DNA of 64,000 bases from Adhaeribacter terrigena (GTDB lineage: Bacteria; Bacteroidota; Bacteroidia; Cytophagales; Hymenobacteraceae): assembly GCF_016623615.1 (NCBI RefSeq), contig NZ_JAEHFX010000003.1, positions 434,001 to 498,000 on the forward strand, written 5' to 3'. Under the pieces are notes generated by a model that did no database searches, was not told where the DNA came from, and saw nothing but the letters and a program-made list of their open reading frames with translations. The stretch's first letter is position 1; every line of letters begins with the position of its first letter. The translations under genes were made by a program, and so were the position numbers. Positions 4,310-58,265 of this stretch are shown here, in pieces.

Positions 4310-4329
4310 GGAAATCAGGGTAAATAAAA

Positions 4330-5343: not shown

Positions 5344-5521
5344 AAAAGAATTAAGGGTTTGAAAAGTTTAAATTGCAACGCCGAATCTAATACTAATCCG
5401 GAAGCGGTGCAAACAATATTCCGTTAAGGCAATATTGTTTCCGTTAAATAAAAATTGCGCTAACTTTTTTACCCGGAAACGGTACTGTTTTAAGCAACAA
5501 AACACCACTTAATTTCTGAAT

Positions 5522-5785: not shown

Positions 5786-5806
5786 GTTTGAATCCTGCAA
5801 AAACTT

Positions 5807-6553: not shown

Positions 6554-6617
6554 CTTGGATCTGTAAATGCGTGAATTGAGATTGTTGAATTACAAAAAAA
6601 CCGAATGGTCATTAAAC

Positions 6618-7223: not shown

Positions 7224-7324
7224 GATTCTTTATAAAGTTTGTGATGTGAAAATGCGGAAATAACCCCGGATAAAAAAACACCCTGCATTGCCTGAATGTA
7301 TTTTTTTTCCGAATGCTAAAACAT

Positions 7325-7355
7325 AAAAAAAGCGCCGGAACTGCCGGCGCTTTTT
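7325..7355 (-). terminator. Rho-independent terminator of the Pmp3-domain lipoprotein gene
   Basis: AAGCGCCGG, a short loop and CCGGCGCTT make a strong GC-rich hairpin flanked by A and T runs. It lies about 30 bases beyond the stop of the leftward gene at 7384-7959. Confidence 0.85.
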
Positions 7356-7383
7356 GGTTGCAGCGCGCTGCTGAATTTTGGTT

Positions 7384-38203: not shown

Positions 38204-39338
38204 AAAAATTATTTCTCCCGATATTGGTTATGCTCACTCCGGAAGCTCCCGTTAAAAGCCCGGTATTCCTTACAAGTCCAATCGATCCACTGTTACGAGC
38301 CTTCTCAACGTATAATACTTGCTCTCTTAAAGCGGATAGGCTTACCGTATCTCCGAAAGCAGGCTTTATTATTTCCACAGCCTTATGTATTCCAGCGGGA
38401 GAGTGAAGTTGATCCCAAAGCTTTTTAAAATCTCGTGAAAACGATACAAATGCTTTATATAGCTCTGGCTCCTTCTCCCATTTATCACTAAATTTTTCAG
38501 CTGGATTGGCTGGGTTGACAATTTCTAATACTTGCCCCTGTAGTAAAGGAACAGCTCTGTTTATTCCATCTATTATTGATCTGATAGCTTGATACTCCGA
38601 TGTCTGGCCACTATAGAATGTTGCTGCCAAGGTGGTTAAGATAATACTTGACGTTGCTAATTCTGGTTTATCTTGAAAGTAGACGTCTCTATACCTTTTG
38701 ATAAGCTGAACAGCCTGCTGCAAAGGCTGCTTGAATTGGTATGGAATATTATCAGGTAATTTTTCAACACTTCTTGCTTTTTCTAAGAGAAGCAAATCTT
38801 CTTTCACATATTTGGTTTCAAACCATTGCGCATAACCTCTCGGATTGCTGGGTGTCCAGTCCTTTAGAATTCGATCAGGAACCATAATTCTGTTATTGTC
38901 ATGATTGGCTTCATAGAAACCTGGCAGAATGTCCATGTGAAATTCATTGGCATAATTCAATCTGATGCATCTATTTTTTCTCTCAACCATAGGGGCATAA
39001 GTTCCATTTTCTTTTAAGCGCCTTACTATTTCATTTAAAGTGCTTATTGGGTTAAACCTTTCATAGGGTCCTTCAAAATGCAAAACAATATCAAGATCAA
39101 ACTCACTTCCCGAAAAAGGCTTTACAGTTGTACCTATCCTAAATGAGCCTTGTGGGTAAATATCAAAGGGCACATCTTTGAAAAAACCAGTATCGGTACT
39201 TATCCAATCTGATACTGAACGATAACTTCTCTCTGCAGACTCTCTTCTAGTATCATCTAGTTGCAGCGATTCGGCAATGCGGTTCAGCAAGTCATCTATT
39301 TGCTGATTAATGGTTTGAGGTATGGAATTGTTATTCAT
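38193..39338 (-). CDS. CD-NTase (cGAS/DncV-like nucleotidyltransferase) of CBASS
   Basis: A 381-residue enzyme that should synthesise a cyclic oligonucleotide alarm signal upon phage infection. The nucleotidyltransferase signature is complete: GSFRIGT at residues 64-70, the metal-binding pair Asp81 and Asp83 in EFDLDIVL, and the third Asp136 in FHMDILPG. The C-terminal part (about residues 200-330) fits the helical OAS1-like domain. The protein ends in FYGG: a free Gly-Gly terminus, the kind of tail that ubiquitin-like transfer uses, in accord with the E2-like partner downstream. It lies 2 bases after the effector gene. The product nucleotide cannot be predicted from sequence alone. Confidence 0.9.
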   Translation of the reverse strand: MNNNSIPQTINQQIDDLLNRIAESLQLDDTRRESAERSYRSVSDWISTDTGFFKDVPFDIYPQGSFRIGTTVKPFSGSEFDLDIVLHFEGPYERFNPISTLNEIVRRLKENGTYAPMVERKNRCIRLNYANEFHMDILPGFYEANHDNNRIMVPDRILKDWTPSNPRGYAQWFETKYVKEDLLLLEKARSVEKLPDNIPYQFKQPLQQAVQLIKRYRDVYFQDKPELATSSIILTTLAATFYSGQTSEYQAIRSIIDGINRAVPLLQGQVLEIVNPANPAEKFSDKWEKEPELYKAFVSFSRDFKKLWDQLHSPAGIHKAVEIIKPAFGDTVSLSALREQVLYVEKARNSGSIGLVRNTGLLTGASGVSITNIGRNNFYGG

Positions 39339-39340
39339 AG

Positions 39341-40165
39341 TTAATTTAATTTAAAGTCCTTGTTAAAGAGGGTGTTGGTATGCTCAGCTACTGCGAACGG
39401 CTTTGCACCATTTGCTCTACCTAGCCTTTTGATTGTATCTTCATCAACCCATTGGTAATTTGAGTTTGCTGTGGGTAAAAGGCTTTTAAGCTCTTGTTGT
39501 TGTTTTTCAGTTGGTATTAACTCATAAACTTCATGAATAAGAATTTCTGGACACTGATAGTAAGTGGACCAGTGCAGGTAAAAAGGGTTTTGATGCAAAT
39601 ATCTATAGTTGATATGCGGGAAATTCTCTCTCGATAGGTAGCCTGGTTGGACTAACTCTTCGCAGAACTCCCGCCAGTTCGAAATCTCTCTATCTTGTTT
39701 TGATTCGAACCAACTAATGAATTTGTGAAGGTTCTTTCCCATTACCCTTATCCGTAGATCATGCCTACTTGTGTCACAAATGGGTATTTCCTTATCATCT
39801 AGGATGTCTAATTGATTGAAAAGCATGGAAGATTCAGGAAGGCACTTATAAACTCCCCCTACAGGCTGCAGTTGATCAATATTTCTACCTTTTACAAGAA
39901 GATATTTACCATCCACATATATTTTGAAGAGGTAAGCAACTGATACTCTTATATAAGTATTAGGATAGCGCATTCTGGCAAACAGGCATACCCAAAGTTT
40001 ATCCTTGAGATCAAGATAAGTTTTGATGACCATGCCGATAATCCCACCAATTCCACCAATAGCTAAGTCGCTTAGGAGGTCTGAGGTTGGTTCGTGTGGA
40101 ATGAAGGAGCCTCCCCAGATTTTAAATGCTATTAAAATACCAAGTGCGGTAACGTATTTTATCAT
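39341..40165 (-). CDS. CBASS effector: transmembrane protein with SMODS-associated NUDIX-like domain
   Basis: A 274-residue protein with two N-terminal hydrophobic segments (about residues 3-22 and 28-50, the second Gly/Ile-rich) followed by a soluble region. The motif VAYLFKIYVDGKYLLVKG and then IDQLQPVGGVYK is the start of the SMODS-associated NUDIX domain (S-NUDIX) known from CBASS operons. The rest of the domain extends to the C-terminus. By analogy to other TM effectors, binding the cyclic nucleotide should trigger membrane damage and abortive infection; this is inferred. It is the first gene of the three-gene operon. Confidence 0.85.
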   Translation of the reverse strand: MIKYVTALGILIAFKIWGGSFIPHEPTSDLLSDLAIGGIGGIIGMVIKTYLDLKDKLWVCLFARMRYPNTYIRVSVAYLFKIYVDGKYLLVKGRNIDQLQPVGGVYKCLPESSMLFNQLDILDDKEIPICDTSRHDLRIRVMGKNLHKFISWFESKQDREISNWREFCEELVQPGYLSRENFPHINYRYLHQNPFYLHWSTYYQCPEILIHEVYELIPTEKQQQELKSLLPTANSNYQWVDEDTIKRLGRANGAKPFAVAEHTNTLFNKDFKLN

Positions 40166-43268: not shown

Positions 43269-44405
43269 TTAGTATGGAATACCAAATTCTACAGCTATAT
43301 CTTGATTAATTTTAGAAAAAGGTCTCTTTGACAGATCCTCTTTTTTCATGTAATTTCTATTTAAAAATCTTAAAATATCTTCTCTATTTCGGAAAAGCTT
43401 TCCTTCAAAATTAATAATATATTCTTGGATAAGACTTTCATTATATATAAGTGCTGATTGTAACATCTCAACAATTAAATCCTTATGCATTTCAAACAAA
43501 TCGATAGTCTTAAAAACTTTATGAGTTTGGTTTGCTCTTCTTAAATTTTTTCTTTCACAACCAACTCTGTGAATAAGATCTAAACTAAACCCATCTAAAT
43601 TTCCATAAAATAATGAGATATAGTCTTTAATTTCTTTTTTTCTAATTCCATCTAAAAGTTTCTTATCTTTTAGTTTAACGGTAAATTTCAAATAATCATC
43701 TAAGCCTTCTAAATAGGGATGCAGGTTATTACCTAAAGTAAAAGCAGCATCATGTTTTAAGCCTGAATTACAAATATGACAAGAAGGGATTAAGTTGTAA
43801 AAAGAAAGAGCTAAATATGGGTAAGTTGCTTTATCAAAGAAATGATCAAACTCAGGGCGAACTAATCTTTCCTCCCCTTTTGTCAAAGTGAATGTAAAAC
43901 CTCGGTTACAATAAGGACATACGTTAACATTTACTGCCTCAGCCAGTTTATATGCATCATATTTATAAGGGATACCTGCTTTTACTTTGGACTTACTAAT
44001 TTTTGGCTTTGTGATAAAAGCATCATAATTAAATACATACCGTATATGATCGCCAAACTTCTTATCCGGATCGCCCTTTTTCATATATTCAATATTTGGA
44101 TAAACTCCTTTTGATATCCTTGTTTTGACATTAGCTATTACCTTCGATAGCTGTTTAGGGTCACCCTGGATAATTATTTTTAGCCATTTATAATTATCCT
44201 TTTTTAAATCTTGAAAAAATTTTTCACATAAAGGGTCACTTGTCAAAGAACTTTTTAACAATTGTATTCTATTATCTATTCTTTTTTTTAATGAAGATTC
44301 ATTTTTAATTTTTTGGCTGCCTAAAGTAAAACTATTCTCTACTAACCTATTATAATGATTATCTAAGAAAACGTTAGAATTCTTCCCTAAATCAATTTTG
44401 AACAT
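43269..44405 (-). CDS. HNH endonuclease, Septu-like (PtuB-like)
   Basis: A 378-residue protein. An N-terminal helical region (1-155) is followed by a zinc-supported HNH nuclease: CPYC at 163-166, FDHFFDK with Asp187 and His188, and CHICN at 209-213 with a nearby His218. The C-terminal region (about 230-378) is helical. The gene directly follows an ATPase gene with a 2-base gap, which is the layout of Septu (PtuA ATPase, PtuB HNH). The protein is larger than typical PtuB proteins, so this may be a long subtype or a related ATPase-HNH system. Codons are strongly AT-rich compared with the adjacent type I restriction genes. Confidence 0.8.
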   Translation of the reverse strand: MFKIDLGKNSNVFLDNHYNRLVENSFTLGSQKIKNESSLKKRIDNRIQLLKSSLTSDPLCEKFFQDLKKDNYKWLKIIIQGDPKQLSKVIANVKTRISKGVYPNIEYMKKGDPDKKFGDHIRYVFNYDAFITKPKISKSKVKAGIPYKYDAYKLAEAVNVNVCPYCNRGFTFTLTKGEERLVRPEFDHFFDKATYPYLALSFYNLIPSCHICNSGLKHDAAFTLGNNLHPYLEGLDDYLKFTVKLKDKKLLDGIRKKEIKDYISLFYGNLDGFSLDLIHRVGCERKNLRRANQTHKVFKTIDLFEMHKDLIVEMLQSALIYNESLIQEYIINFEGKLFRNREDILRFLNRNYMKKEDLSKRPFSKINQDIAVEFGIPY

Positions 44406-44407
44406 CT

Positions 44408-46369
44408 TTATTTATTTTTTAATACCTTAATATCCCTTTCCAAAGTTGTTAACCTTTCATTAATGTTAATCATATTAATGGAAAGCCGATCCCTTAACAT
44501 ACTTATTAATTTTGCCTTAATTAGAGGCTCTCCAATTAAATTAATAATGGTTTCAATTATATTTTGATTATGATCAATTTCCTTAAAATCTCCATTTAAC
44601 TGCTCAATAACCCAATTGATCTTTGATTTAGCAAAATCACCAATCGTGCCTTGGTTCATAAAAAAAGAGTCAGATAATAGTGTATGTATATTGGAAGCAA
44701 ACGTTTGTTTTTTTTCTTCTAAGCTATCTTGTACTTCAGTCTCAAGATTATTCCAACTTCTTTTTAGAAATACTAAATTTGTACTAGGAATATCAGATGC
44801 AATTAAAGGAGAATTTGAAGCAAGAATAATATGAATAGTCCTTTTATCTTTAATGTTTGCTGAAGAATATATTAACGGGATAAAATCCAATAAAATTTTA
44901 ATAAATTGGCGTTGCCAATTTGGATGGAGAAAGTTTTCACCTTCATCAATCATAATAACAACATCTTTTTTAAGTTGTCTATTATTAAATCGTTGATTAT
45001 CAATTAAGCTATAAAACCTTGAATAAATATTTAAGAGTGCTTTTTCTCCAGAGCTTAATGAACGCCAAGAAAAGTTAAGATAAGGTAACAAGCTAAAAGA
45101 AGATTTATAAATATTAAAAAACTTCTGTGCTAAACTAAAATTATCCTTTATTTCTAAGTACAAAAAATAAGTCTTTAAATTATAAGATGCTTGGTAAGAA
45201 ACCTTTAATTTACCTGATTTAACTGATTGCTCTAAATAGTTGATAAATTTTAGAACACCTGTGGGCCAATCAATAATTTGATCACTAACTTTTATAGGAT
45301 TACCATTTTTCAGAGATTCAATAATCTCATTTAATAAAGTCTTAATTGTTTCAACCGTATTTTTTTTAATCTTTAATAATTCTTTAATTCTTTTCTGTGA
45401 TAAACTAATTAACTTTACTCTATCAGAATAAGAGGCTTCCGTTAAAAGATTAATAAATGCTTCCACACTAAAGGCAATAAGAGCCTTTTTATGATATGAA
45501 GTTTCTGTATCCTCCTCTTTTCTAGCTAATAATAAAATATCATTTGCTATTTTTTTAAATTCAGGCAAAATGTCTAAATATAGTTTTTCTTCATAAGATG
45601 AACTGGCCCCTAAGTACTTTGCTTTAGAACTAATTAATAAAACCTCAGGTAATGGGAATGGGATTACTTTATTAAATTTAGTATTACTAAGGAAATCCAA
45701 CTGACGTTGCAATTCTTCAGTTTGAAATATTTCTACTTCACTTTTGGCTTGAGATTTATAATCATAGTGACTTTCTTTTACTCGTATTAAATCATTTCTA
45801 ATTAAAAAATTTGTGGAAATATTATTTAGGCCACTAAGACTTACTTCATCTTTTCCATCAAAAATATTTGAGAAAAATATAAAGCTAGTATTAACAAATT
45901 CCTTAATTTGTTCACCATTTCTACCAGGTGAATCTAATTCCTCTCCATTATCACCTGAAGTATACGATTTAATAATAAATCCCTTTTCTTTAAAATTACC
46001 CTTTTCAATTTTAAGTATTTTATCGTGGTAAATAATGTTTTTGGAATCAGATGTTCTAAATGCAAATATACAAGTGCTGTTAACCCCTATTTGCCCCTCT
46101 AATAGATTTTCCTTAATAAAATCAAAAAAAGAAGTTTTACCGACCCCATTCTCACCTATGATAGCACTAACATCTGATATATTTGCTATTCCATTTTGAT
46201 CAGACTCATCCCTATGGTTATAGAATCCTTCAAGGTAGAACGGATTATCAGTTATGTTCAAGGATTTTTGATCTTCATCATAGTGAAATCGATAAGGGCC
46301 TCCTAAATTGAAAGGTAGATTTTGTATATTATTCCTATATTTTTTGATCCAAACGAAATATAAATGCAT
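44408..46369 (-). CDS. AAA/ABC-type ATPase, Septu-like (PtuA-like)
   Basis: A 653-residue ATPase. Walker A is GENGVGKTS at residues 72-80, an ABC-type signature SLSSGEKALLNIYSRF occurs at about 437-450, Walker B is VVIMIDEGENFLHP at about 465-478, and a switch-like SNSPLIASDIP follows. The middle part (about 200-430) is helical and probably coiled-coil. This is the plan of SMC-like/OLD-like ATPases of defence systems. It is encoded first in a two-gene operon with the HNH nuclease, so the pair is best read as Septu-like. No reverse transcriptase or retron RNA was seen next to it. Composition is AT-rich, suggesting separate acquisition. Confidence 0.82.
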   Translation of the reverse strand: MHLYFVWIKKYRNNIQNLPFNLGGPYRFHYDEDQKSLNITDNPFYLEGFYNHRDESDQNGIANISDVSAIIGENGVGKTSFFDFIKENLLEGQIGVNSTCIFAFRTSDSKNIIYHDKILKIEKGNFKEKGFIIKSYTSGDNGEELDSPGRNGEQIKEFVNTSFIFFSNIFDGKDEVSLSGLNNISTNFLIRNDLIRVKESHYDYKSQAKSEVEIFQTEELQRQLDFLSNTKFNKVIPFPLPEVLLISSKAKYLGASSSYEEKLYLDILPEFKKIANDILLLARKEEDTETSYHKKALIAFSVEAFINLLTEASYSDRVKLISLSQKRIKELLKIKKNTVETIKTLLNEIIESLKNGNPIKVSDQIIDWPTGVLKFINYLEQSVKSGKLKVSYQASYNLKTYFLYLEIKDNFSLAQKFFNIYKSSFSLLPYLNFSWRSLSSGEKALLNIYSRFYSLIDNQRFNNRQLKKDVVIMIDEGENFLHPNWQRQFIKILLDFIPLIYSSANIKDKRTIHIILASNSPLIASDIPSTNLVFLKRSWNNLETEVQDSLEEKKQTFASNIHTLLSDSFFMNQGTIGDFAKSKINWVIEQLNGDFKEIDHNQNIIETIINLIGEPLIKAKLISMLRDRLSINMININERLTTLERDIKVLKNK

Positions 46370-46610: not shown

Positions 46611-48698
46611 ATGGAGAACCTGGAACAAATTGAGCGCCGGCTTTGGTCGGCTGCTGACCAATTACGTGCAAATTCTAAACTTACCTCTACCGAATATTCA
46701 ATGCCGGTGCTGGGGCTTATTTTCCTGCGCCACGCTTTTAACCGCTTCCTGGTTGTAAAAGACGAAGTTGAAGCTAACCTACCAAAACGTCAAGGCGTAA
46801 CCCGCCCGATTACCAAAGAAGACTTTACCCGCAAAAGCGCATTATTCCTGCAGCTGGAATCTCAATATGAACACATGCTGAACCTGCCTTCCGATAAGGA
46901 TATTGCTCAAGCTATTATTTACGGCATGCAGCTGATTGAGCAGGACTACCCTACCCTAGCCGGCGTATTGCCTAAAGATTACCAGATCTTTGAAAGCGAC
47001 CTGCTGAAGAGCCTGCTCAAAACGTTTAACGACGAGGCTTTGCGCACTGCCTCCGGCGATATGTTCGGTCGGATCTACGAGTACTTCCTGATGAAATTTG
47101 CGATGCAGGGCGCGCAGGATAACGGCGAATTCTTTACCCCGCCCTCATTGGTGCAAACCATTGTAAACTTAATTGAGCCGGACCACGGTATTGTAACGGA
47201 CCCGGCCTGCGGTTCTGGTGGAATGTTTGTGCAAACCAGCCATTTCCTGGAAAAGGTAGGTAAACCAGCTCACGAAGCAGTTTCTTTTTTCGGGCAGGAG
47301 AAAACGGCGGCTACTATTAAGTTAGCGAAAATGAACCTTGCCGTACACGGCCTGGAAGGTCGCATCGAAGAAGGCAACAGCTTCTACGAAGACAAGCACA
47401 ATTTACTGGCCCGCGCCGATTTCGTGATGGCCAATCCGCCGTTCAACGTGGACGAGGTGGATGCCGAAAAAATTAAGAACGACCCACGCTTGGAATTTGG
47501 CTTGCCTGGTGTAAACAAAAGCAAAAAAGTAAGCAACGGCAACTACCTCTGGATCTCCTACTTCCACAGCTACCTTACTGATACTGGTCGCGCTGGTTTT
47601 GTAATGTCGTCGCAGGCTTCCAGTGCGGGGCACGGCGAAAAGGATGTGCGACGCAAGCTCGTTGAAACCGGCGACGTGGATATGATGGTGGCTATCCGCT
47701 CGAACTTCTTTTATACCCGTACCGTGCCTTGCGAATTGTGGTTCCTGGACAAAGGCAAACCTACTGATCGCAAAGACCAGGTTCTGATGTTGGATGCCCG
47801 CAACATTTTCCGGAAAGTAACCCGCAAAGTGTACGATTTTTCTGAAGAACAATTGCAGAACCTTACGGCCATAACCTGGCTTTACCGAGGCCAGCAAGAC
47901 CGCTATTTAGGACTCCTGAACAAATATCTGAACCGGGTTTGTGAAGAATGCACTATTATTCCGTTGGACCTGCAAAGTTTTGAGAAGAACCTGCACGACC
48001 TGCAAACTGAAGTGCTGACTTTCCTGGAAACGGTCCCAAAAACGGCAGAAAAACTACCAGACCTTACTGCCGCTTTACAGGAATGGAAAACGGCAGATGC
48101 TGCTTACCGGGAAGACCGCCAGAACTTAGTGCAGGAATTGGCCAACTACTGCAATACTTGGTGCCCAAGCGTAATGGCAAACAACGAATGGCAACACCAG
48201 GCGAGCAAAGCGTTCGGGCCATTATCTGAAAAAGGGAAAGGTTTAGGCAAACAGCTGGACTTGCTTTACAAACTAGCTTTGCGTATCCTCGATATTGCCG
48301 AAAAGGAACTGGATGCAAAAAACAATGCTGACTACGACAACAAAGCCGTAAACAAACTCCGGAAAGAACTAGACGGACGCCGCCACCAGGCAACCGAACA
48401 ACTGAAGCTGGCGGTTTATTTTTATAAGCAAGTGGTTTGGCTGCAAAGCCGTTTCCCGGAGGCGAAACTTCAGAATGTGGAAGGCCTGGTGAAACTGGTA
48501 AGCCGGAAAGAGATTGAAGATAACGATTGGAGCTTAACGCCTGCCAGATACGTAGGCGTTGCACCAAAGGAAATAGACGAAGATTTCGACTTTGAAGAAA
48601 CACTGCGTGATATTCATATTGAATTGGCAGGCTTAAATGAAGATGCTGCTGAGCTTGCTTTAGCTATTCAAAGAAACTTTGAGGAGTTAGGAATATGA
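46611..48698 (+). CDS. hsdM: Type I restriction-modification methyltransferase subunit HsdM
   Basis: A 695-residue N6-adenine methyltransferase. The N-terminal helical domain (EQIERRLWSAADQLRANSKL) is typical of HsdM. The SAM motif is TDPACGSGGMF at about residue 196-206 and the catalytic motif is NPPF at about 275. The C-terminal extension (about 470-695) is long and helical, with Gln/Glu/Lys-rich segments, so the protein is larger than common 500-residue HsdM. Its stop overlaps the start of hsdS by 4 bases (ATGA), so the genes are translationally coupled. It is divergently transcribed from the Septu-like operon, with a 241-base promoter region between. Confidence 0.95.
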   Translation: MENLEQIERRLWSAADQLRANSKLTSTEYSMPVLGLIFLRHAFNRFLVVKDEVEANLPKRQGVTRPITKEDFTRKSALFLQLESQYEHMLNLPSDKDIAQAIIYGMQLIEQDYPTLAGVLPKDYQIFESDLLKSLLKTFNDEALRTASGDMFGRIYEYFLMKFAMQGAQDNGEFFTPPSLVQTIVNLIEPDHGIVTDPACGSGGMFVQTSHFLEKVGKPAHEAVSFFGQEKTAATIKLAKMNLAVHGLEGRIEEGNSFYEDKHNLLARADFVMANPPFNVDEVDAEKIKNDPRLEFGLPGVNKSKKVSNGNYLWISYFHSYLTDTGRAGFVMSSQASSAGHGEKDVRRKLVETGDVDMMVAIRSNFFYTRTVPCELWFLDKGKPTDRKDQVLMLDARNIFRKVTRKVYDFSEEQLQNLTAITWLYRGQQDRYLGLLNKYLNRVCEECTIIPLDLQSFEKNLHDLQTEVLTFLETVPKTAEKLPDLTAALQEWKTADAAYREDRQNLVQELANYCNTWCPSVMANNEWQHQASKAFGPLSEKGKGLGKQLDLLYKLALRILDIAEKELDAKNNADYDNKAVNKLRKELDGRRHQATEQLKLAVYFYKQVVWLQSRFPEAKLQNVEGLVKLVSRKEIEDNDWSLTPARYVGVAPKEIDEDFDFEETLRDIHIELAGLNEDAAELALAIQRNFEELGI

Positions 48699-49915
48699 GT
48701 TGGAAAGATATCAGAGTTGGAGACTATTTAACGGTACTTACTGATTACCACGCAAATGGTGCTTATGAAAAATTAAAGAAAAATGTTACCCTTAAATATG
48801 AACCGGATTATGCTTTAATGATCAGGACATTAAATTTTGAAAGAGGAGATTTTAAAGATGATCTTATTTACCTAAATGAAGAGGAGTATGAGTTTCTAGC
48901 AAAGTCAAAGGTTAAGCCCTATGACATTGTTATGAATAAAATTGCTAATGCAGGTTCGGTTTATTTGATGCCTAATCTAGGCCAGCCTGTTTCACTTGCA
49001 ATGAATCTCTTTTTATTGAGGTTTGATGAAAGAGTAGATCAAAAATTTATGTTCTACTTAATGAAAGTCAATGAACCTTATATAAAAACTTTTACTAATG
49101 GATCGACTACAAAAACTATTACAAAAGATGCGGTTAAGAACCTAAACTTCAAACTTCCTCCTCTCCCAACCCAGCAAAAAATAGCTTCCATTCTTTCTGC
49201 TTACGATGACCTGATAGAGAACAACCTGAAGCGGATTGCATTGCTGGAAAAATCGGCGCGGCTGCTTTACGAAGAATGGTTTGTGCGCCTCCGCTTCCCC
49301 GGCTACGAACATACCAAAATAGAAAATGGTATCCCTGAAGGCTGGAAAAGTCAGACTGCTTATGAATCAATGGAAATTATGAGCGGTGGTACTCCTAAAA
49401 CTTCAAACCCAAATTTTTACGACGGGGAGATTCCGTTTTATACACCCAAGGATGCCTCAGATAATTTTTATGTCTTAGAAACGCTTAAAACGCTAACTGA
49501 ACAAGGATTAAAAAACTGTAATAGCAAATTTTATCCGAAAGACACTCTTTTTATTACTGCCAGAGGAACGGTAGGTAAATTAAATTTAGCGCAACAGCCA
49601 ATGGCAATGAACCAATCTTGTTATGCACTAAAAGGTAAATTTTACATAACCCAAAAGTTTCTTTATTGCGCTATGGCTGACGCTGTAGAACGAATTAAAA
49701 GCCACGCCGTGGGTTCGGTCTTCGATGCAATTGTTGTTGATACCTTCAAAATGATTACATTAAATATTCCAACTGAAAATTTAGTGAACATATTTGAAGA
49801 AACTATAAGACCTGTATTTGTACAAACTGAAACGCTATTACTTCAGACTAAAAAACTAAAACAAGCCCGCAACCTACTTTTACCTAAACTGATTAACGGC
49901 GAAATACCCGTATGA
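48695..49915 (+). CDS. hsdS: Type I restriction-modification specificity subunit HsdS
   Basis: A 406-residue protein with two target-recognition domains. The first TRD (about 1-150) and the second (about 215-365) are each followed by a conserved helical spacer (LPTQQKIASILSAYDDLIEN and, at the end, LKQARNLLLPKLINGEIPV). The second TRD begins with PEGWKSQTAYESMEIMSGGT, as usual. The TRDs determine the bipartite DNA sequence recognised, which cannot be predicted here. The start overlaps hsdM and the stop overlaps hsdR by 4 bases each, so the three genes form a tight operon. The TRD codons are more AT-rich than the spacers, as expected for exchanged domains. Confidence 0.93.
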   Translation: MSWKDIRVGDYLTVLTDYHANGAYEKLKKNVTLKYEPDYALMIRTLNFERGDFKDDLIYLNEEEYEFLAKSKVKPYDIVMNKIANAGSVYLMPNLGQPVSLAMNLFLLRFDERVDQKFMFYLMKVNEPYIKTFTNGSTTKTITKDAVKNLNFKLPPLPTQQKIASILSAYDDLIENNLKRIALLEKSARLLYEEWFVRLRFPGYEHTKIENGIPEGWKSQTAYESMEIMSGGTPKTSNPNFYDGEIPFYTPKDASDNFYVLETLKTLTEQGLKNCNSKFYPKDTLFITARGTVGKLNLAQQPMAMNQSCYALKGKFYITQKFLYCAMADAVERIKSHAVGSVFDAIVVDTFKMITLNIPTENLVNIFEETIRPVFVQTETLLLQTKKLKQARNLLLPKLINGEIPV

Positions 49916-52900
49916 ACGATCTGAGCGAAGACAACTTAGTGCAGCAAGCCACCGCCCAATTCCTGCAGGAGCACTTGGGCTGGGAAACAGTATTTGCTTA
50001 CAACCAGGAAGTGCTGGGACAAGATGGAACCTTGGGCCGTATTACCCGGCAAGAAGTTTACTTGAAACGTTACCTTCGCACAGCTCTGGAGGAGCTCAAC
50101 AGAGATCTTAACTTACCGCCAGTTGCTTTCGATACTGCTATCAGGGATATTACCGAAACTCGGGCTGGGCATAACGTTAACATCCGCCTTAACCGCGAGA
50201 AATATCAGATTTTTAAAAACGGTGTTCCTGTAGAGTACCGCAACGCGAAAGGTGAAATTGAAAAACGCCGTCTACGCATATTCGATTTCGAAAATCCCGA
50301 AAACAACCATTTTCTGGCCGTGCGAGAGCTTTGGGTTTACGGTTCCATTTACCACCGTCGCCCCGATATTGTCGGTTTTGTAAACGGCCTACCGCTGCTT
50401 TTTATCGAGCTTAAAAATGCCAACGTCCACATAAACAGCGCTTATAAAGACAACTTCTCCGATTACAAAAACACCATTCCGCACCTTTTCGATGCCAACG
50501 CCTTTGTAATTATCAGCAATGCCCTTGAAGCCAAAGTAGGTTCCGTAACCGGCAAGCTCGGCCATTTCCACGAATGGAAGCGCCTGGAAGAAGAAGCCCC
50601 CGGCGTAGTACAGCTGGAAACGCTTTTAAAAGGCCTTTGCACCAAAGCAAACTTTATGGATCTCTTCGAAAACTTCATCCTGTTCGACGAGAGCCGCGGC
50701 AGCCTGGCCAAAATTGTAGCTAAAAACCACCAGTTCCTGGGCGTAAATCGCGCTGTAGCGGCCGTGCAAGATCGCCAAAACCGGAACGGTCAGCTCGGGG
50801 TTTTTTGGCATACGCAGGGCTCCGGCAAATCGTACTCTATGGTGTTCTTCTCCGAGAAAGTTCGCCGCAAATTGCCCGGTAATTTCACCTTCCTCATCGT
50901 TACCGACCGCACCGACCTCGATAATCAGATCTACCGCACCTATGCCGGCACCGGCATAGTAGATAATAAGGCAAACACCTGCCGGCCATCTTCGGGCAAG
51001 CATTTACAGGAACTCTTCAAAGCTGATAAACCCTATTTGTTTTCGCTCATAAACCTCTTTAACCAGGAAGTTTCCGAAGAAAATCCCTACACCCGCCGCT
51101 CCGACGTAATCGTAGTTTCCGACGAAGCCCACCGCAGCCAGTACGGCCGCCTAGCCCTTAACATGCGGTCGGCTTTGCCCAATGCGCACTACATCGGTTT
51201 TACCGGTACCCCGCTTTTCAAGAACGACGAAATCACCAAACGCATCTTCGGCGATTACGTGTCCACTTACGATTTCCAGCGGGCTGTGGAAGATGGTGCT
51301 ACCGTACCCTTATATTTCGATAGTCGCGGCGAAAAACTGCAACTGGAAACCACCGAAATAAACAACAGGATTGCTGAAAAACTGGAAGAGCTGGAACTTG
51401 ACCTGAACCAAGACGAACAGGCACTGCTGGAAAAACAACTGGGCCGCGATTACCATATTCTAACCGCCTCCAGCCGTCTCACGCCCATTGCCCAGGATTT
51501 TGTAAACCATTATACCACCCAATGGGAAAGCGGCAAAGCTATGTTTGTCTGCCTCGATAAGCTCACCACCGTTAAAATGTATAACCTGGTGCAGCAATTC
51601 TGGGAAGCAGAGAAACAAGCATTGCAACAGCAACTGGAAGAAAGCAACAATGCCGCCGAAATGCAGGAACTGCGCCGGAAACTAACCTGGATGCAGGAAA
51701 CCCAAATGGCCGTGGTAGTAAGCGAGGAACAAGGCGAAATTGAGAAATTCCGGAAAGAAGGTCTCGAAATTCTGCCGCACCGCCAACTCGAAAAACAAGG
51801 CTTCGAAACGCCCGATGGCAAACGCATAGACCTGGAAACCGCCTTCAAGAAAGACGAAAATCCTTTCCGGGTTGCTTTTGTTTGTGCCATGTGGCTTACC
51901 GGTTTCGATGTGCCAAGTTTAAGCACGCTTTATTTAGATAAGCCACTTAAAGCCCATACCTTAATGCAGGCCATAGCCCGCGCCAATCGCGTACACGAAG
52001 GTAAAAACAATGGCCTGATCGTAGATTATTGCGGCATCCTGAAAAGCCTGCGCGAAGCCCTTGCACTTTTTGCATCCGGTACCCCTCAGGATGATACCCT
52101 AAACCCAAACCCGGACCCCGTAAAACCAAACGAAGAATTGCTTTCCGATCTGGAAACCTCTATCCTTATGGTACGCAATTTACTTTCGGAACGTGGCTTT
52201 GAGTTAGATAATATTTTCGATAAGAGTGCCGCGTTTAGCCAGGCTTCCGCTATTCTGGCTGCTAAAGAAGCCATAAACCAAAGCGAAGAAACCCGCAAGC
52301 GTTTCGAGATCCTTGCCCGGGAAGTATTTAAGAAATTCAAGGCCTGCCTTACCATTCCTGGTGTAAAAGCTTTCGGCAAAGATTACGATACCATAAACTT
52401 CATTTACAAAACCCTGCAGGCAGATAAAGAGAAAGCTAATATATCGGACATCCTGCGCGAACTAGGTCAGGTAGTAAACGTAGCAATTGGTACCGCTTCT
52501 ATGGCTGCAGAGAACGGAAAACTTTACGACATTAGTAAAATAGACTTTGAACTGCTGCGGAAAGAATTTGCCAAATCGAAAAAGAAAAACAGTACTGTTC
52601 ATGACCTGAAAACTTATATCGAACAGAAACTGGCGAAGATGATGCGGAACAACCCGACTCGCATTGATTATTATAAACGCTACCAGGAAATAATCGCCGA
52701 CTACAACTTCGAAAAAGACCGCAAAACGATAGAGGAAACCTTCGAAAAACTGATGAAGTTTATGCAGGACCTCAACGAGGAGGAAAAGCGCGGAATGCGC
52801 GAAGGCCTGTCAGAAGAAAACTTGGCTTTGTTCGATCAGCTCCAGAAACCTAACCTTGCAAAAAAAGATATGGAAAAGCTGAAGCAAGTGGCCAAAGAAT

Positions 52901-53127
52901 TGCTACAGGGCTTAAAAGATCAGAAAGACAAATACCAACAGTGGCGCAATAACGAAGCATCCAAAGCTGATGTAAGGACCTTCATCCTGAACTATTTATG
53001 GGATGAAGAAAAAGGTCTGCCAGGATCGTTTAACCAGGAAGAAATACAGGAAAAAGCCAAAACCCTCTACAGCTTCATTTACGACCATTATCCAAATTTC
53101 GGAGGTCCGGATTCAGCTGCAGCTTAG
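49912..53127 (+). CDS. hsdR: Type I restriction endonuclease subunit HsdR
   Basis: A 1071-residue motor-nuclease of the EcoR124-like type. The nuclease core is RRPDIVGFVNGLPLLFIELK (about residues 150-167: Asp, then Glu-x-Lys). Helicase motif I is TQGSGKSYS at about 300, motif II is DEAHRSQ at 404, and motif VI includes QAIARANRV. The C-terminal helical domain (about 730-1071) holds the HsdM-binding part. It begins in a 4-base overlap with hsdS. It moves DNA past the methylase and cuts unmethylated invading DNA. The sequence is complete and uninterrupted, so the system looks functional. Confidence 0.95.
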   Translation: MNDLSEDNLVQQATAQFLQEHLGWETVFAYNQEVLGQDGTLGRITRQEVYLKRYLRTALEELNRDLNLPPVAFDTAIRDITETRAGHNVNIRLNREKYQIFKNGVPVEYRNAKGEIEKRRLRIFDFENPENNHFLAVRELWVYGSIYHRRPDIVGFVNGLPLLFIELKNANVHINSAYKDNFSDYKNTIPHLFDANAFVIISNALEAKVGSVTGKLGHFHEWKRLEEEAPGVVQLETLLKGLCTKANFMDLFENFILFDESRGSLAKIVAKNHQFLGVNRAVAAVQDRQNRNGQLGVFWHTQGSGKSYSMVFFSEKVRRKLPGNFTFLIVTDRTDLDNQIYRTYAGTGIVDNKANTCRPSSGKHLQELFKADKPYLFSLINLFNQEVSEENPYTRRSDVIVVSDEAHRSQYGRLALNMRSALPNAHYIGFTGTPLFKNDEITKRIFGDYVSTYDFQRAVEDGATVPLYFDSRGEKLQLETTEINNRIAEKLEELELDLNQDEQALLEKQLGRDYHILTASSRLTPIAQDFVNHYTTQWESGKAMFVCLDKLTTVKMYNLVQQFWEAEKQALQQQLEESNNAAEMQELRRKLTWMQETQMAVVVSEEQGEIEKFRKEGLEILPHRQLEKQGFETPDGKRIDLETAFKKDENPFRVAFVCAMWLTGFDVPSLSTLYLDKPLKAHTLMQAIARANRVHEGKNNGLIVDYCGILKSLREALALFASGTPQDDTLNPNPDPVKPNEELLSDLETSILMVRNLLSERGFELDNIFDKSAAFSQASAILAAKEAINQSEETRKRFEILAREVFKKFKACLTIPGVKAFGKDYDTINFIYKTLQADKEKANISDILRELGQVVNVAIGTASMAAENGKLYDISKIDFELLRKEFAKSKKKNSTVHDLKTYIEQKLAKMMRNNPTRIDYYKRYQEIIADYNFEKDRKTIEETFEKLMKFMQDLNEEEKRGMREGLSEENLALFDQLQKPNLAKKDMEKLKQVAKELLQGLKDQKDKYQQWRNNEASKADVRTFILNYLWDEEKGLPGSFNQEEIQEKAKTLYSFIYDHYPNFGGPDSAAA

Positions 53128-53152
53128 TTTTAAATTCTTAAAATCTGATACT

Positions 53153-53587
53153 ATGATTAAAATTTCGCCTTCCATAAATTGCACAACCGCACAACTAAAA
53201 TATTATTGTTGTACTGATGGGATAGACCAAGTAAGAGGTGAAGTAATAATTGAAGTTGAGTTAATAAAAAATCATAAAGACTATCCTGATAATAGTAATT
53301 GGCTGCTTGAATTTGTAGTTCCAACTGCCAATCAAGCGTACAATCCATTAGATGTCAAGAAGATACATATAGATCTTGCAGAATATATTAATATCAATCC
53401 AGTAACTGAAGATTATTTAGTATTGGACTTTGATTTTGGAATAAATCCCGCCCAAGCTGGAGCCATTTTTAAGGGCCTTATTTACCACATGGGTGATAAC
53501 GGCTTGTTTGACTATGGTTATGAGATTTCTGGAGTAACCCAGTTTGTCCCTGAAGGAGTTATGTTAAGCGATTTTATGGAAGATTGA
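53153..53587 (+). CDS. Hypothetical protein, 144 residues
   Basis: A small acidic protein beginning at ATG 53153, 25 bases after hsdR. It contains a mixed alpha/beta pattern (KISPSINCTTAQLKYYCC, then GEVIIEVELIKNH, LVLDFDFGINPAQAG and VTQFVPEGVMLSDFMED) and no signal peptide or membrane segment. I do not recognise the family. The codons are AT-rich, unlike hsdR. Its position after the restriction operon and before two nuclease genes suggests a defence-linked role, but this is only context. Confidence 0.55.
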   Translation: MIKISPSINCTTAQLKYYCCTDGIDQVRGEVIIEVELIKNHKDYPDNSNWLLEFVVPTANQAYNPLDVKKIHIDLAEYININPVTEDYLVLDFDFGINPAQAGAIFKGLIYHMGDNGLFDYGYEISGVTQFVPEGVMLSDFMED

Positions 53588-53663: not shown

Positions 53664-54095
53664 ATGTTTACAAGACAGGATAGGTTAAAGATATTTAATC
53701 AAAAAAAGAAAAAGGTTGAACGAAGAACTAATAAGGAGGGAATAATTACAGAAAAGGTAATTCCTGGTTTTGAAAATACAACTTTTGAGCAATTCGAGGA
53801 ATGGTTTGATGAAACAACATTTAACCAAGGGTGCAATTACTGTGGCACAACCAACCATAGAAGTTTAGAGCTTTATCAAATGCAACGCGCTGGTTTAAGA
53901 CCAGATGCTACCCGTGGAGGTAAAAGAGGGAAACGACTCGAATTAGATAGAGTTGATCCTCGCCAGCCCTATGATAACTTACAAAATCTTGTATGGTGCT
54001 GCTATTGGTGTAATAATGCCAAATCCAATTTCTTTACTGCTGAGGAATTCAAACCAATTGCAGTTGCAATGAGAGCTGCACTATCAGCTATATAG
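53664..54095 (+). CDS. Small HNH endonuclease
   Basis: A 143-residue protein with the layout of a stand-alone HNH nuclease: CNYCG at residues 57-61, LELDRVDPRQPYDNLQNLVW at about 92-111, and CYWCNNAKS at 113-121. The two CxxC pairs bind zinc and the DRVD region replaces the usual H-D of the beta-beta-alpha fold, as seen in other restriction-type HNH proteins. The N-terminus is basic and could bind DNA. It sits between the type I restriction operon and the GIY-YIG and McrBC genes, so a DNA-cutting role in defence is likely, but its target is not known. Confidence 0.75.
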   Translation: MFTRQDRLKIFNQKKKKVERRTNKEGIITEKVIPGFENTTFEQFEEWFDETTFNQGCNYCGTTNHRSLELYQMQRAGLRPDATRGGKRGKRLELDRVDPRQPYDNLQNLVWCCYWCNNAKSNFFTAEEFKPIAVAMRAALSAI

Positions 54096-54114: not shown

Positions 54115-54615
54115 ATGAAATCACGTCTTAAAACGGTTATCATAAATTGGCATGGGCCATTTCGGTCTCTAGAAGATATTACCCCAGAACAGAAAGGCAA
54201 TGGTTTATACTTTCTTTGGGGCAAAACAAAGGGGCAAAAAAACCATCGGTTTCAGTACATCGGAATAACTGAACAAAACTTTACTGACCGTTTTAAGGAC
54301 CCTAATCATAGATGTCATGAACTCCGGTTCCCAGAAAGTAGCATCTGGCTAGGTCATATACATTATCCCTCTCGTTACAAACGAAACTTACTTGAACTAG
54401 GTGAGAATTGTTTATGTCATTTTGCTGCTCCTGATAAGAATAAAAATAAACTATATCAGCCTAGAAAACCGGGATGCATCATCTCTCAATGGTGTACTCA
54501 GGAGGGAATACCCCGTTTAAGGAGGCCTTCACTGCCAGATTATATGCCAGAAATGCTTTGGTGGGATACAGAACGGTGGAGAACTGGGAATATGAAGGTT
54601 TGGGGGTTGGATTAA
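54115..54615 (+). CDS. GIY-YIG-fold nuclease-like protein
   Basis: A 166-residue protein whose residues 30-100 match the GIY-YIG nuclease pattern: GLYFLWG (Gly30, Tyr32), FQYIGIT (Tyr48, Gly50), the arginine in TDRFKD (Arg59), and LLELGENCL with the candidate catalytic Glu (94 or 97). No extra domain is seen; the C-terminal part (RRPSLPDYMPEMLWWDTERW) is aromatic. It begins 19 bases after the HNH gene and precedes mcrB by 57 bases, all rightward, so it could belong to one operon with McrBC. Confidence 0.7.
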   Translation: MKSRLKTVIINWHGPFRSLEDITPEQKGNGLYFLWGKTKGQKNHRFQYIGITEQNFTDRFKDPNHRCHELRFPESSIWLGHIHYPSRYKRNLLELGENCLCHFAAPDKNKNKLYQPRKPGCIISQWCTQEGIPRLRRPSLPDYMPEMLWWDTERWRTGNMKVWGLD

Positions 54616-54672: not shown

Positions 54673-56994
54673 ATGCCCAATATACAATTAAACCCTCTCC
54701 TCACCCCACAGGTAGTAGCCATTCTGAATAAATGTTTATTTAGCTATTCCGAAGCTTGCAAAAACGGTAATTGGGTAAACGAGGAAATCTATAAATTTGA
54801 ATTTGCCCAATGGTTAACTTCAAGAGTTGATTTTAATTACCAGACTAATGAGCAAATTCTGGATATTTGCTTAGAAAGCCAGCAACAGCGTTACACTAAT
54901 ACCTCAACCAAAGGCGTAAATTTCCTTTTATCTGCCGGAAATGAAAAAAGAAGCATCTTTTTAACTCCTTCTGATATTGATCTATTCAGGAAGGCCGCTC
55001 AAGGAACGTTATTATCAGAGAAAGACCTTGAAAACCGAGGAATAAGTTATACAGGTTTAACCGGGTGGCTAGGCACACTTTTCCCTAACCAATATGTACC
55101 TGTAGTAGCGCTCGAAGAAGTTGACGCTATCATTAAAATTTGGAATCTTCAAAAACACCCTCAAAAAGGTTACCCTGGCTTCGTTGCTAATCAAGAATTC
55201 GGGAAGGCCATAGTAGCATACATCAAGCATTACGCCCAAGAAATTACGATTCTGTTTAATAAACAGTTAGTCAATCCTTTAAACCTTGAAACTTTGTATA
55301 ATTGGGTGGCGCAGGATTTTACAATTTTTATTAAACGAAGGTTAATAAATCAGAACAACTTCCCTCCAAGTATCCCCGATCCTAAACCTGGACCTCCTAC
55401 CAAAACTATGACAATACAATACCCATTGAACACGATTCTTTTCGGCCCTCCGGGTACTGGGAAGACCTACAATACTAAGCAATATGCAATTCAGCTAATT
55501 GAGAATTTATCTGAAGAAGAATGTTCAAAAAAATATCCTGACCGCCAATCCTTAAATGCACGGTTTGACCTTTTTCAGGACCGAAAACAAATAGAATTTG
55601 TTACTTTCCACCAGTCCTTTACTTACGAAGACTTTATTGAAGGTATCAAACCAGTTCTTCCTAAAACAAATGGGAATGAAGAGATTAAAGAAGCTAATTC
55701 AGGCAAACTAACCTATGAAATAGCCGACGGCATTTTCAAAACTATTTGCGAAAGGGCGGAAAGCTATATGAATTACACTCCTGAAAACCAGCCCGAAAGT
55801 TTTAAAACGGAAATGAGCCAGGGTTTTCAAAGAGCAAATTTCTACAAAATGTCAATTGGTAATACAGCCAATTCGGAAGATGATGAGATTTACCAATATT
55901 GTATTGAGAACGGCTGCATTGCTTTAGGTTGGGGCGGAGAAATAGATTTTAGGGGAGTAAATAATAGAAAGGATATAAAAGATCGGTTAGATGAGGAAGG
56001 AGTTGAAAGAAGTCCTTATGAATCTACTGCCGTTAAGATGTTTGTTGTAGATATGAAACCGGGAGATTTTGTTTTTATATCATCCGGTAATTTTAAGATC
56101 CGGGCCATTGCTCAAATCAGCGGCGGGTATTATTTTCAAAAGGATTCGCCAATCAGATACAGCCAATTCCGGGAAGTAAAATGGCTGATTACCAATATTA
56201 ACTTACCTGTTACTGAAGTTTACAATAAGGCCTTCTCCCAACAAACAATTTACGGTTTAAATAAGAATCTCATTAACCAGGACTATTTCCAAACTTCTGC
56301 TGTTTTACCTAATAAAGAAGAATTTCACAGAAATCATGTACTGGTTATTGATGAGATAAACAGAGGTAATGTATCACAGATATTTGGAGAGCTAATTACC
56401 CTGATTGAATCAGATAAAAGGTCAGGTGATAGCGAGAGTCTAATGATTAAACTTCCTTATTCAAAAGAGGATTTTTCAGTACCTAATAATTTATACATTA
56501 TCGGAACCATGAACACTGCCGACCGCAGCGTAGAAGCCTTAGACACTGCTTTACGCCGCCGTTTCAGCTTTGTAGAGATGCCACCGCAATACGAACTTCC
56601 GGAAATAAACCGGGAAGTGGAAGGATACAACCTAGCTAACATTCTCCAGAAAATTAATCAGCGAATTGAAAAGCTATTAAGTAAGGACAACCTGATCGGG
56701 CATAGCTACTTTATGACAGCTAACAGCCTGAAAGACCTGCGGGCAGTTTTTCAGTATAAAATAATACCGTTATTGCAGGAATACTTTTTCGGTGATTTTG
56801 GGAAGATAGGTTTAGTATTAGGCGAAGGCTTTTTTCAAACGTCTGAAAATACTGACAATAATATTTTCGCAACTTTCCGAAACTACGACCCTTCAGGCTT
56901 AGCTGAAAAAGAAGTTTACCACCTAATAAACGTGCTGGATGAGAAAAAACTGAATGACAACCAGTTTAAAGCAGCCTTGGATGCACTAGTTTAA
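54673..56994 (+). CDS. mcrB: McrB-type GTPase with EVE-like reader domain inside the AAA module
   Basis: A 773-residue motor subunit of a modification-dependent restriction system. Residues 1-240 form an N-terminal domain of unknown fold. The McrB AAA module starts with Walker A GPPGTGKT at about 257-264 and VTFHQSFTYEDFIEGIKPV. Between this and Walker B (HVLVIDEINRGN, about 554-565) lies an insert of about 155 residues (about 388-545) that looks like an EVE-like base-reading domain: GCIALGWGGEIDF, MKPGDFVFIS and IRAIAQISGGYYF, ending REVKWL. The McrB signature MNTADRS is at about 613. It lies 5 bases before mcrC. The insert could recognise a modified base and couple it to GTP hydrolysis; this is inferred. 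Confidence 0.88.
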   Translation: MPNIQLNPLLTPQVVAILNKCLFSYSEACKNGNWVNEEIYKFEFAQWLTSRVDFNYQTNEQILDICLESQQQRYTNTSTKGVNFLLSAGNEKRSIFLTPSDIDLFRKAAQGTLLSEKDLENRGISYTGLTGWLGTLFPNQYVPVVALEEVDAIIKIWNLQKHPQKGYPGFVANQEFGKAIVAYIKHYAQEITILFNKQLVNPLNLETLYNWVAQDFTIFIKRRLINQNNFPPSIPDPKPGPPTKTMTIQYPLNTILFGPPGTGKTYNTKQYAIQLIENLSEEECSKKYPDRQSLNARFDLFQDRKQIEFVTFHQSFTYEDFIEGIKPVLPKTNGNEEIKEANSGKLTYEIADGIFKTICERAESYMNYTPENQPESFKTEMSQGFQRANFYKMSIGNTANSEDDEIYQYCIENGCIALGWGGEIDFRGVNNRKDIKDRLDEEGVERSPYESTAVKMFVVDMKPGDFVFISSGNFKIRAIAQISGGYYFQKDSPIRYSQFREVKWLITNINLPVTEVYNKAFSQQTIYGLNKNLINQDYFQTSAVLPNKEEFHRNHVLVIDEINRGNVSQIFGELITLIESDKRSGDSESLMIKLPYSKEDFSVPNNLYIIGTMNTADRSVEALDTALRRRFSFVEMPPQYELPEINREVEGYNLANILQKINQRIEKLLSKDNLIGHSYFMTANSLKDLRAVFQYKIIPLLQEYFFGDFGKIGLVLGEGFFQTSENTDNNIFATFRNYDPSGLAEKEVYHLINVLDEKKLNDNQFKAALDALV

Positions 56995-56999: not shown

Positions 57000-58265
57000 A
57001 TGATTTTTTCCGGCAAACTTATTACCGTTTTCGAGCACCAAGTGCTTAAACTCGATCAGGAAGTTGATGGAGTGAAGTTTGATGAGTCAAAATTAAAAGC
57101 GCTCCAGGCCTTTTATGGAGATAAAGGTGTACCTTATTTTTCGCTGGTACATAAAGGGGTAAAGTTTAATGAAAACGTTGGGGTGCTGCAGGTAGGTAAT
57201 TTAACTATAGAAGTGCTCCCGAAAGCCGACAAAAGCGAGAATAAAAAGCAATGGCATGAAATGCTGATTGGGATGTTAAAAGCCGTTGGCATATTTGATA
57301 TTCAGGCACCAAGCAGCAGCAACTTAAAACTTAAAACAAATTCAATCCTAGACCTTTATTTTGCTTTGTTCCTACAGGAAATTGAATATCTGCTGCACCG
57401 TGGTCTGGTGAAGCGCTATCGTAAAACTGAAAGCAATTCTACCGCATTAAAAGGCAGTATTCAGTTTGCCCAGCACATTCAGAAAAACCTTGTGCATCAG
57501 GAACGATTTTATGTGCGGCATACTACTTACGATGTGCAGCACCAATTGCACCAGATCCTTTACAAAACGCTTGTATTGATTAACCGCATAAATACCAATC
57601 CGGAACTTCAAAGCAAAATAGGATCACTACTGCTTAATTTTCCGGAACAGCTCGAGCTTAAAGTTACCGAAGCAATTTTTGAAAAAATAACCTATAACCG
57701 GAAAACGGAGGGTTACCGGAAAGCAGTTGATATAGCAAAACTCCTTTTGCTTAATTATCATCCGGATGTAAGTAAGGGAGCCAACTATGTGTTGGCCTTA
57801 ATGTTCGATATGAATTTGCTATGGGAGCGATTTGTATATGTAAGCCTTAGGAAAGGCCTGCGAGTAAACAAACCGGACTTTACCATTGCCTCCCAGACTT
57901 CGAAATACTTTTGGCAGCCTGAAAAAGGATTTAGAAGTAAGATTATCCCGGACATTGTCCTTAATAAGGACATTCCGGGATGTGTGGTTTTAGATACCAA
58001 ATGGAAAAACCTGAATGGATATAATCCTTCTCCAGATGATCTGCGACAGCTTTATGTTTATCATGAATATTACAAAGCGGTCAAAGTCGCTTTAGTTTAT
58101 CCGGGTTCAACTCAAAACCAAACAAAAGGCCGCTACCTTCACCTTGACACAGGTGATAAAACAGAAAAAGAATGCAGTGTAATTTCCTTAAGTGTAAAGG
58201 AAAATATTGTAGACTGGCAGAGCTCAATTTATTCTGAGTTGGCAAATTGGATCACAAATACTTAA
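57000..58265 (+). CDS. mcrC: McrC-type nuclease subunit
   Basis: A 421-residue protein of the McrC family, which binds the McrB ring and cuts modified DNA. The N-terminal part (about 1-250) has VLQVGNLTIEVLPK and the conserved GLVKRYRKTESNSTALKGSI; the C-terminal part is a PD-(D/E)XK nuclease with PDIVL and CVVLDTKWK at about 315-335. Length is normal. The ATG follows the mcrB stop by 5 bases and the two are almost certainly co-translated. The system would act on DNA bearing modified bases recognised by McrB. Confidence 0.92.
   Translation: MIFSGKLITVFEHQVLKLDQEVDGVKFDESKLKALQAFYGDKGVPYFSLVHKGVKFNENVGVLQVGNLTIEVLPKADKSENKKQWHEMLIGMLKAVGIFDIQAPSSSNLKLKTNSILDLYFALFLQEIEYLLHRGLVKRYRKTESNSTALKGSIQFAQHIQKNLVHQERFYVRHTTYDVQHQLHQILYKTLVLINRINTNPELQSKIGSLLLNFPEQLELKVTEAIFEKITYNRKTEGYRKAVDIAKLLLLNYHPDVSKGANYVLALMFDMNLLWERFVYVSLRKGLRVNKPDFTIASQTSKYFWQPEKGFRSKIIPDIVLNKDIPGCVVLDTKWKNLNGYNPSPDDLRQLYVYHEYYKAVKVALVYPGSTQNQTKGRYLHLDTGDKTEKECSVISLSVKENIVDWQSSIYSELANWITNT

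Follow-up and report, generated by a model that had tools for sequence, protein, structure and literature searches.

A 64,000-nucleotide stretch of the Adhaeribacter terrigena genome (contig NZ_JAEHFX010000003.1, positions 434,001 to 498,000 of the forward strand), referred to below as the window, carries an mcrBC locus that, judged from its sequence, consists of an intact McrB followed by an intact-looking McrC. We describe in this McrB a domain that splits the AAA+ GTPase core between Walker A and Walker B and that is predicted to adopt a YTH/EVE-like reader fold. We consider it probable that the locus encodes a type IV (modification-dependent) McrBC system whose target-recognition module lies inside the motor subunit.

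A split McrB motor and its McrC partner

The window McrB matches solved McrB motors in phmmer comparisons (6ut3, E 3.2e-56; 6hz4, E 2e-35), and Pfam AAA_5 and AAA each match it in two separated stretches. Its McrC is the sole Pfam McrBC match in the genome, and relatives of this McrC were present in all 19 of the loci picked for context search. An initial annotation of the locus had placed an insert between Walker A and Walker B, which the positions of the two motifs bear out (Table 1), and the strings it quoted are found in the translation: IALGWGG at residues 416-422, GGYYF at 484-488 and VKWL at 502-505, together with GDFVFIS and RAIAQISGGYYF. Its bounds for the insert, about residues 388-545, are refined here to a wider insert, linkers included, that contains a narrower folded reader.

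Aligning the two halves of the core to the Thermococcus gammatolerans McrB motor locates the insertion point. The match ends at residue 362 of the window McrB and resumes at residue 555, so helix alpha2 precedes the insert and beta3, the Walker B strand, follows it. The insert re-enters the core about six residues ahead of D560, the expected magnesium-binding aspartate. In T. gammatolerans McrB, 64 residues separate the matched end of alpha2 from Walker B (286 to 351 in 6ut5), whereas in E. coli McrB the core match resumes 19 residues past the FHQS motif, so the alpha2-Walker B junction tolerates extra sequence. In AAA+ folds, the junction between alpha2 and beta3 is found at the far end of the sheet as seen from the nucleotide. 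By this topology the insert would attach at the distal end of strand beta3, and the earlier suggestion of a sensor beside the nucleotide site is not supported. A model of the full-length McrB (predicted local distance difference test score, pLDDT, 48.4) was too poor for placing the reader.

These features set the window McrB apart from its best-known relatives. E. coli K-12 McrB shares the AAA+ GTPase core, the NxxD signature, a downstream McrC and nearby Type I restriction genes, but has almost no extra residues from FHQS to Walker B, and its reader is N-terminal according to the parts of Bell et al. 2024 that we drew on (DUF3578; PMC11090510). T. gammatolerans McrB (6ut3/6ut5) likewise joins a YTH-type reader to an McrB motor and holds extra residues at the alpha2-Walker B junction; its YTH domain, however, is N-terminal in the published description as far as we consulted it (PMC7680126), whereas the reader of the window McrB is inside the motor.

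Table 1. Positions, in window coordinates, of the mcrBC locus, its sequence elements and the genes upstream of it
Feature	Position	Strand	Remarks
hsdM	46611-48698		Type I restriction operon
hsdS	48695-49915		Type I restriction operon
hsdR	49912-53127		Type I restriction operon
194-residue open reading frame	53003-53587	+	overlaps the end of hsdR; no confident family
HNH endonuclease-like protein	53664-54095	+	between hsdR and mcrB; PHROG endonuclease VII, E 3.6e-8
166-residue protein	54115-54615	+	between hsdR and mcrB; looks like a GIY-YIG nuclease by eye; no Pfam match
McrB, 773 residues	54673-56994	+	ATG start, no frame break; N-terminal domain, split AAA+ GTPase core, inserted reader
N-terminal domain, about residues 1-230	54673-55362	+	common to L005; mostly helical in a low-confidence model
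Walker A GPPGTGKT, residues 258-265	55444-55467	+
McrB motif FHQSFTYEDFIEGIKP, residues 312-327	55606-55653	+	precedes the insert
Helix alpha2 DGIFKTICERAES, residues 352-364	55726-55764	+	last core element ahead of the insert, by alignment to T. gammatolerans McrB 6ut3
Insert relative to the AAA+ core, about residues 366-553	55768-56331	+	linkers included
YTH/EVE-like reader fold (predicted), about residues 389-530	55837-56262	+	conserved aromatics Y391, W420, Y486, F488, W504
Walker B VLVIDEINRGN, residues 556-566	56338-56370	+	expected Mg-binding Asp is D560
McrB signature NxxD in MNTADRS, residues 613-619	56509-56529	+
McrC partner nuclease	57000-58265	+	Pfam McrBC E 1.5e-57; PD...DTK motif (PDIVL...DTKWK), PD at 317, DTK at 332

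Fold and family of the insert

Structure prediction and comparison with EVE and YTH folds, the check proposed when the insert was first noticed, indicate a separately folding YTH/EVE-like domain and not a part of the AAA module. Modelled alone as residues 377-554, from an alignment of the window sequence and three relatives, the insert is predicted with a pLDDT of 82.9 and a predicted template-modelling score of 0.80, in the order beta-alpha-beta-alpha-alpha-beta-beta-beta-beta. Foldseek searches with this model returned 35 PDB chains at E<=0.001, all 35 of them YTH domains (best 4rcj_A, E 7.8e-5). Among the 50 matches listed by VIA are YTHDF2 (7z8w_B; Z 9.9, root-mean-square deviation 3.4, 131 residues aligned) and PH1033 (Z 9.1), which we take to be an EVE-type protein; the YTH domain of T. 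gammatolerans McrB was not seen among these 50, to which we attach no weight. Profile comparison points the same way: hhalign gives a probability of 92.5% between 37 reader-family rows and 24 Pfam-EVE proteins (of 30 loci fetched), against 0.1-0.2% for the second insert family described below and for the window N-terminal domain, which served as controls.

The insert matches the PADLOC model PDC-S02 (E 6e-11) over the N-terminal part of that model, and a Mrr_cat nuclease occupies the other half of all four PDC-S02 relatives scanned (L040, L041, L047 and L049; E 6.4e-18 or better). By sequence comparison, the insert and the domain at the N-terminus of Mrr-type restriction enzymes are homologous. 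In the PDC-S02 proteins the homologous reader domain is at the N-terminus, and those scanned are single proteins of about 330-350 residues with Mrr_cat and no AAA+ motor, whereas the window McrB lacks Mrr_cat and holds its reader internally. Five aligned relatives keep the insert, at 66, 36, 36, 35 and 31% identity with the flanks included.

An aromatic base pocket is suggested by conserved residues. Counted over the residues present in the 37 family rows, F, W, Y or H occupies position 391 in 94%, 420 in 94%, 486 in 89%, 488 in 92% and 504 in 100%; in the 11 internal-reader rows, position 486 is Tyr and position 504 Trp in every case, and position 420 is always W, F, Y or H. The aromatic base pocket of VcaM4I includes W82 and Y130 in the portion of that study consulted (PMC7897488), and the conserved aromatics of the reader family are consistent with a pocket of this kind.

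Several results weigh against taking the insert for a reader of modified bases. The five insert models vary, with mean pLDDT falling from 82.9 to 62.5, and derive from an alignment of four sequences; TM-scores from Foldseek are modest, at 0.39-0.50 by length of the query over the first 35 rows; and the case for the pocket is one of conservation. The window insert matches neither Pfam EVE (PF01878) nor Pfam YTH (PF04146), nor any other Pfam family, and among 17 family members scanned only two touch Pfam EVE, the better at E 0.025, below the cut-off, and none matches Pfam YTH. With seven internal readers alone, the hhalign probability to EVE falls to 35%. Insert profiles run against PDB sequences hit neither a YTH nor an EVE chain at E values up to 10, and the tie to solved readers therefore rests on fold comparison. 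Finally, YTH and EVE folds may bind RNA or unmodified nucleic acid. A wider search with Pfam YTH found nothing in 80 genomes and likewise nothing in 14 controls, and is therefore uninformative. We call the insert YTH/EVE-like on the basis of its predicted fold alone, and not as a member of Pfam EVE or YTH.

Distribution and possible exchange at the alpha2-Walker B junction

The internal reader occurs in 15 McrBs examined, window included, from Bacteroidota, Pseudomonadota and Bacillota; the 14 others rule out that it is unique to the window genome. Among 395 genomes of the window phylum, 31 hold some match and five a match over the whole alignment, flanks included, and since the search profile was built from internal readers, these counts lean towards them. 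Before plasmid loci were added, 11 distinct McrBs had the reader between the two Walker motifs, and in 12 distinct places, all in McrB-like proteins or copies, it lay N-terminal to Walker A; one protein (L050/L071) had it in both positions; further carriers of the family are PDC-S02-type and other proteins. Insert matches occur in 104 of 72,556 plasmid records, 62 of them from Klebsiella, and most of the plasmid matches listed are annotated merely as 'AAA family ATPase'. The position of the insert was checked in five plasmid McrB loci, of which four have the reader between Walker A and B (L129 from a plasmid of E. coli AW1.7, with the mcrBC pair at 4038-7498, L130 from Niallia, L131 from Sinorhizobium and L132 from Acinetobacter) and one, L133 from a Runella plasmid, has no reader by profile; at L133 the mcrB/mcrC-like pair is directly followed by a pglZ annotated as BREX-1. 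At an identity of at least 99%, the E. coli mcrBC pair is found in 10 of 5,426 complete E. coli genomes, on seven plasmids and three chromosomes. No relative of the insert, or of the complete McrB, was confirmed in viral contigs, and annotated phages gave no tblastn match to the insert at E 0.1.

The same junction receives other domains. In a sample of 46 McrBs gathered by likeness to the window protein, and hence biased, 11 carry the reader and 27 a different large insert, with 111-195 residues separating alpha2 from Walker B; three have an insert ahead of the FHQS motif instead, and five have none (17-39 residues over that interval from alpha2 to Walker B). For a more even sample we took every McrC place in 198 Bacteroidota genomes, which came to 24 in 20 of the genomes; a Walker A and B pair could be located in 20 of the 24, the remainder being three stretches cut by contig ends and L135, which showed no pair. 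Distances from FHQS to Walker B in these 20 McrBs fall into two groups, 152-247 residues in ten and 47-52 in nine, while L154 gave no FHQS match and has a short distance of 78 residues from Walker A to B. Large inserts at the alpha2-Walker B junction are thus present in ten of the 20: two are readers (one of them the window's), seven belong to a second family, whose profile includes rows from two of them (L144 and L145), and the tenth, L146, is unassigned.

This second insert family, about 100-180 residues long with the pattern FDxxYxxFI...TK..L...YYAV, lies between alpha2 and Walker B in L025, L027, L031, L034, L036, L039 and other loci. An hhalign comparison with the reader, from which three reader-type rows and two others were left out, gives 0.2-0.3%, and by this measure the two families are unrelated. 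Searches of PDB and Pfam with the second family returned nothing reliable (best PDB E 0.039; single members touch unrelated Pfam families, at best E 0.0039). A third insertion site is seen in L028, L038 and L077, and also in L143 of the even sample, where about 100 extra residues stand between Walker A and the FHQS motif; L038 and L077 carry an N-terminal reader besides. The short-core tree unites L028, L038 and L077 with support of 100/100, but the longer-core tree puts L038 elsewhere.

In a tree of 41 readers (seven rows labelled Mrr, four of them scanned for Mrr_cat), the 15 internal readers fall on one side (96/93), joined by the short, long-branched open reading frame L097. A single clade of the 15 is not rejected by the approximately unbiased (AU) test (p 0.529), so the internal readers are compatible with one lineage, non-rejection being no proof of it. 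Of the two reader copies in L050, the N-terminal one falls among N-terminal readers and the internal one among internal readers. Motor cores compared with the insert left out (44 rows, 11 with an internal reader and 33 without; L082 and L083 omitted for a long branch and a shortened sequence) do not place internal-reader McrBs in one clade (AU p 0.037), which counts against a simple story. This tree needs six changes, two of them forced by well-supported branches, and a shorter-core tree of 46 rows needs four, just one of them forced; many forks in each are weak. An exchange of readers between motors is suggested by these trees, not proven.

Segment identities suggest that the window McrB itself is built as a mosaic. 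Compared with L021, it is 67% identical over residues 241-330 and 66% over the insert, falling to 44% over 646-700 and 40% over 701-773, and the N-terminal 240 residues are 28% identical, with no blastp match at 1e-3. Compared with L006, which holds a different insert, it is 53% identical over 241-330 and 27% over the insert (half aligned), then 71% over 646-700 and 58% over 701-773. L005, whose insert belongs to the second family, is 50% identical at the N-terminus (residues 1-240) and 25% over the alignable part of the insert.

The N-terminal domain shared with L005 also bears a weak likeness to L022 and L072, and has no Pfam or NCBIfam match. The initial annotation had raised the possibility of two sensors in this McrB; a second reader in the N-terminal domain finds no support, given the lack of family matches and an hhalign probability to EVE of 0.2%. 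An EVE candidate spotted by eye at the N-terminus of L022 and L072 scores 1.4% to EVE and 47.5% to the reader family by hhalign. Two readers in one McrB do occur in genome G402 (L050/L071), one N-terminal and one inside the GTPase. The McrB of genome G301 (L053/L137) has an EVE-profile match at residues 222-338 of the L053 protein, a second N-terminal reader, and a second-family insert in the motor.

The window mcrBC genes stand downstream of a Type I restriction operon (hsdM, hsdS and hsdR, 46611-53127), with small genes in between (Table 1). An association of McrBC with Type I restriction has been reported for the K-12-type branch in the text consulted of Bell et al. 2024 (PMC11090510). In L026, L027 and L032, mcrB and mcrC are placed between relatives of hsdS and hsdR of a Type I operon. 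Elsewhere in the window, both on the minus strand, lie CBASS-like genes for an E2-like protein, an oligonucleotide cyclase and a 2TM effector (37790-40165, by PADLOC), and a two-gene candidate defence system, PDC-M62 (43269-46369), comprising an ATPase and a partner with weaker PtuB-type matches.

Proposed function of the inserted reader

We propose that the window locus is probably a type IV restriction system with its target-recognition module built into the motor. Held on flexible linkers, the reader would capture a flipped modified base in its putative aromatic pocket, and each McrB hexamer would display six readers around the ring, tethering it to modified DNA. By analogy to known McrBC systems, DNA-bound hexamers joined by McrC may then hydrolyse GTP, translocate, and cleave incoming modified (phage) DNA. 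In the parts of the T. gammatolerans and E. coli structure report that we consulted (PMC7680126), the authors dispute a route for DNA through the central channel, ascribe density along the outer edges of the T. gammatolerans ring to its N-terminal domains, and leave open the means of translocation.

A bolder and rather unlikely version of this proposal makes the alpha2-Walker B junction a dedicated reader socket, into and out of which at least two unrelated domain families are swapped while the motor stays constant, and has base capture gate GTP hydrolysis in the same subunit. We raise gating because the linker leaving the reader leads directly into beta3, some six residues ahead of Asp560. 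If true, a single stretch of the polypeptide, and not a remote N-terminal domain, would link recognition to the firing of the motor.

Two alternatives, both of which we regard as improbable, give the insert another role. It may be a nucleic-acid-binding YTH/EVE-like domain that reads RNA or some other feature, as predicted for further domains of the EVE superfamily in CoCoNuTs, a group of McrB relatives: most of the named YTH structures matched by Foldseek and VIA are eukaryotic N6-methyladenosine readers, several of them with RNA, and RNA targeting is predicted for CoCoNuTs of the NxD branch in the sections of Bell et al. 2024 that we used (PMC11090510). The window McrB has NxxD (MNTADRS) and not NxD, however, the close family of its insert is fused to Mrr-type nucleases, and the T. 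gammatolerans McrB with a YTH domain targets DNA with N6-methyladenine (6mA), as described in the consulted part of that work (PMC7680126). In the second alternative, the insert has a structural role or stabilises the oligomer, or is a reader that has degenerated, and the N-terminal domain confers specificity, as it does in E. coli McrB. The window McrB does have an N-terminal domain without assigned function, and since an unrelated domain can fill the same junction, the junction itself might serve assembly. Against this, the insert is kept while the N-terminal domain varies in L021, with the reverse in L005, and Y486 and W504 are retained in every internal-reader row. The chance of an artefact, whether from fused or frameshifted genes or from accidental reader-like motifs, is negligible: one open frame and conservation rule out a gene fusion artefact, the same reader lies inside the motor of 14 further McrBs in three phyla, and the predicted fold is separate.

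Type I methyltransferases usually make 6mA. The analogy to T. gammatolerans would make 6mA the likely target of the window reader; we disfavour this because the adjacent Type I methyltransferase would usually place 6mA on host DNA, and a 6mA reader beside it would need some means of sparing the host.

Insertions in McrB are not in themselves new. Bell et al. 2024 (PMC11090510), in the text available to us, remark in one sentence that insertions 'likely encoding specificity domains' are frequent in McrB GTPase domains, and they promise another paper, on K-12-type and other branches. Bell et al. 2020 (PMC7641849), likewise in part, report that among the EVE proteins of defence systems the EVE-McrB architecture is the most frequent. 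Open-licence literature, searched mostly through listings and the openings of abstracts, yielded no account of the insertion point and fold of this type of insert or of the second insert family.

The path by which a modified base signals to the GTPase in McrBC is unsettled; with the reader built into the motor, that path would be shorter and open to test. Since the same architecture is carried by an E. coli plasmid, and occurs in 10 of 5,426 complete E. coli genomes, common laboratory strains and T-even phages can be used to study it. More generally, the alpha2-Walker B junction is a place to look in defence genes that are annotated only as 'AAA family ATPase'.

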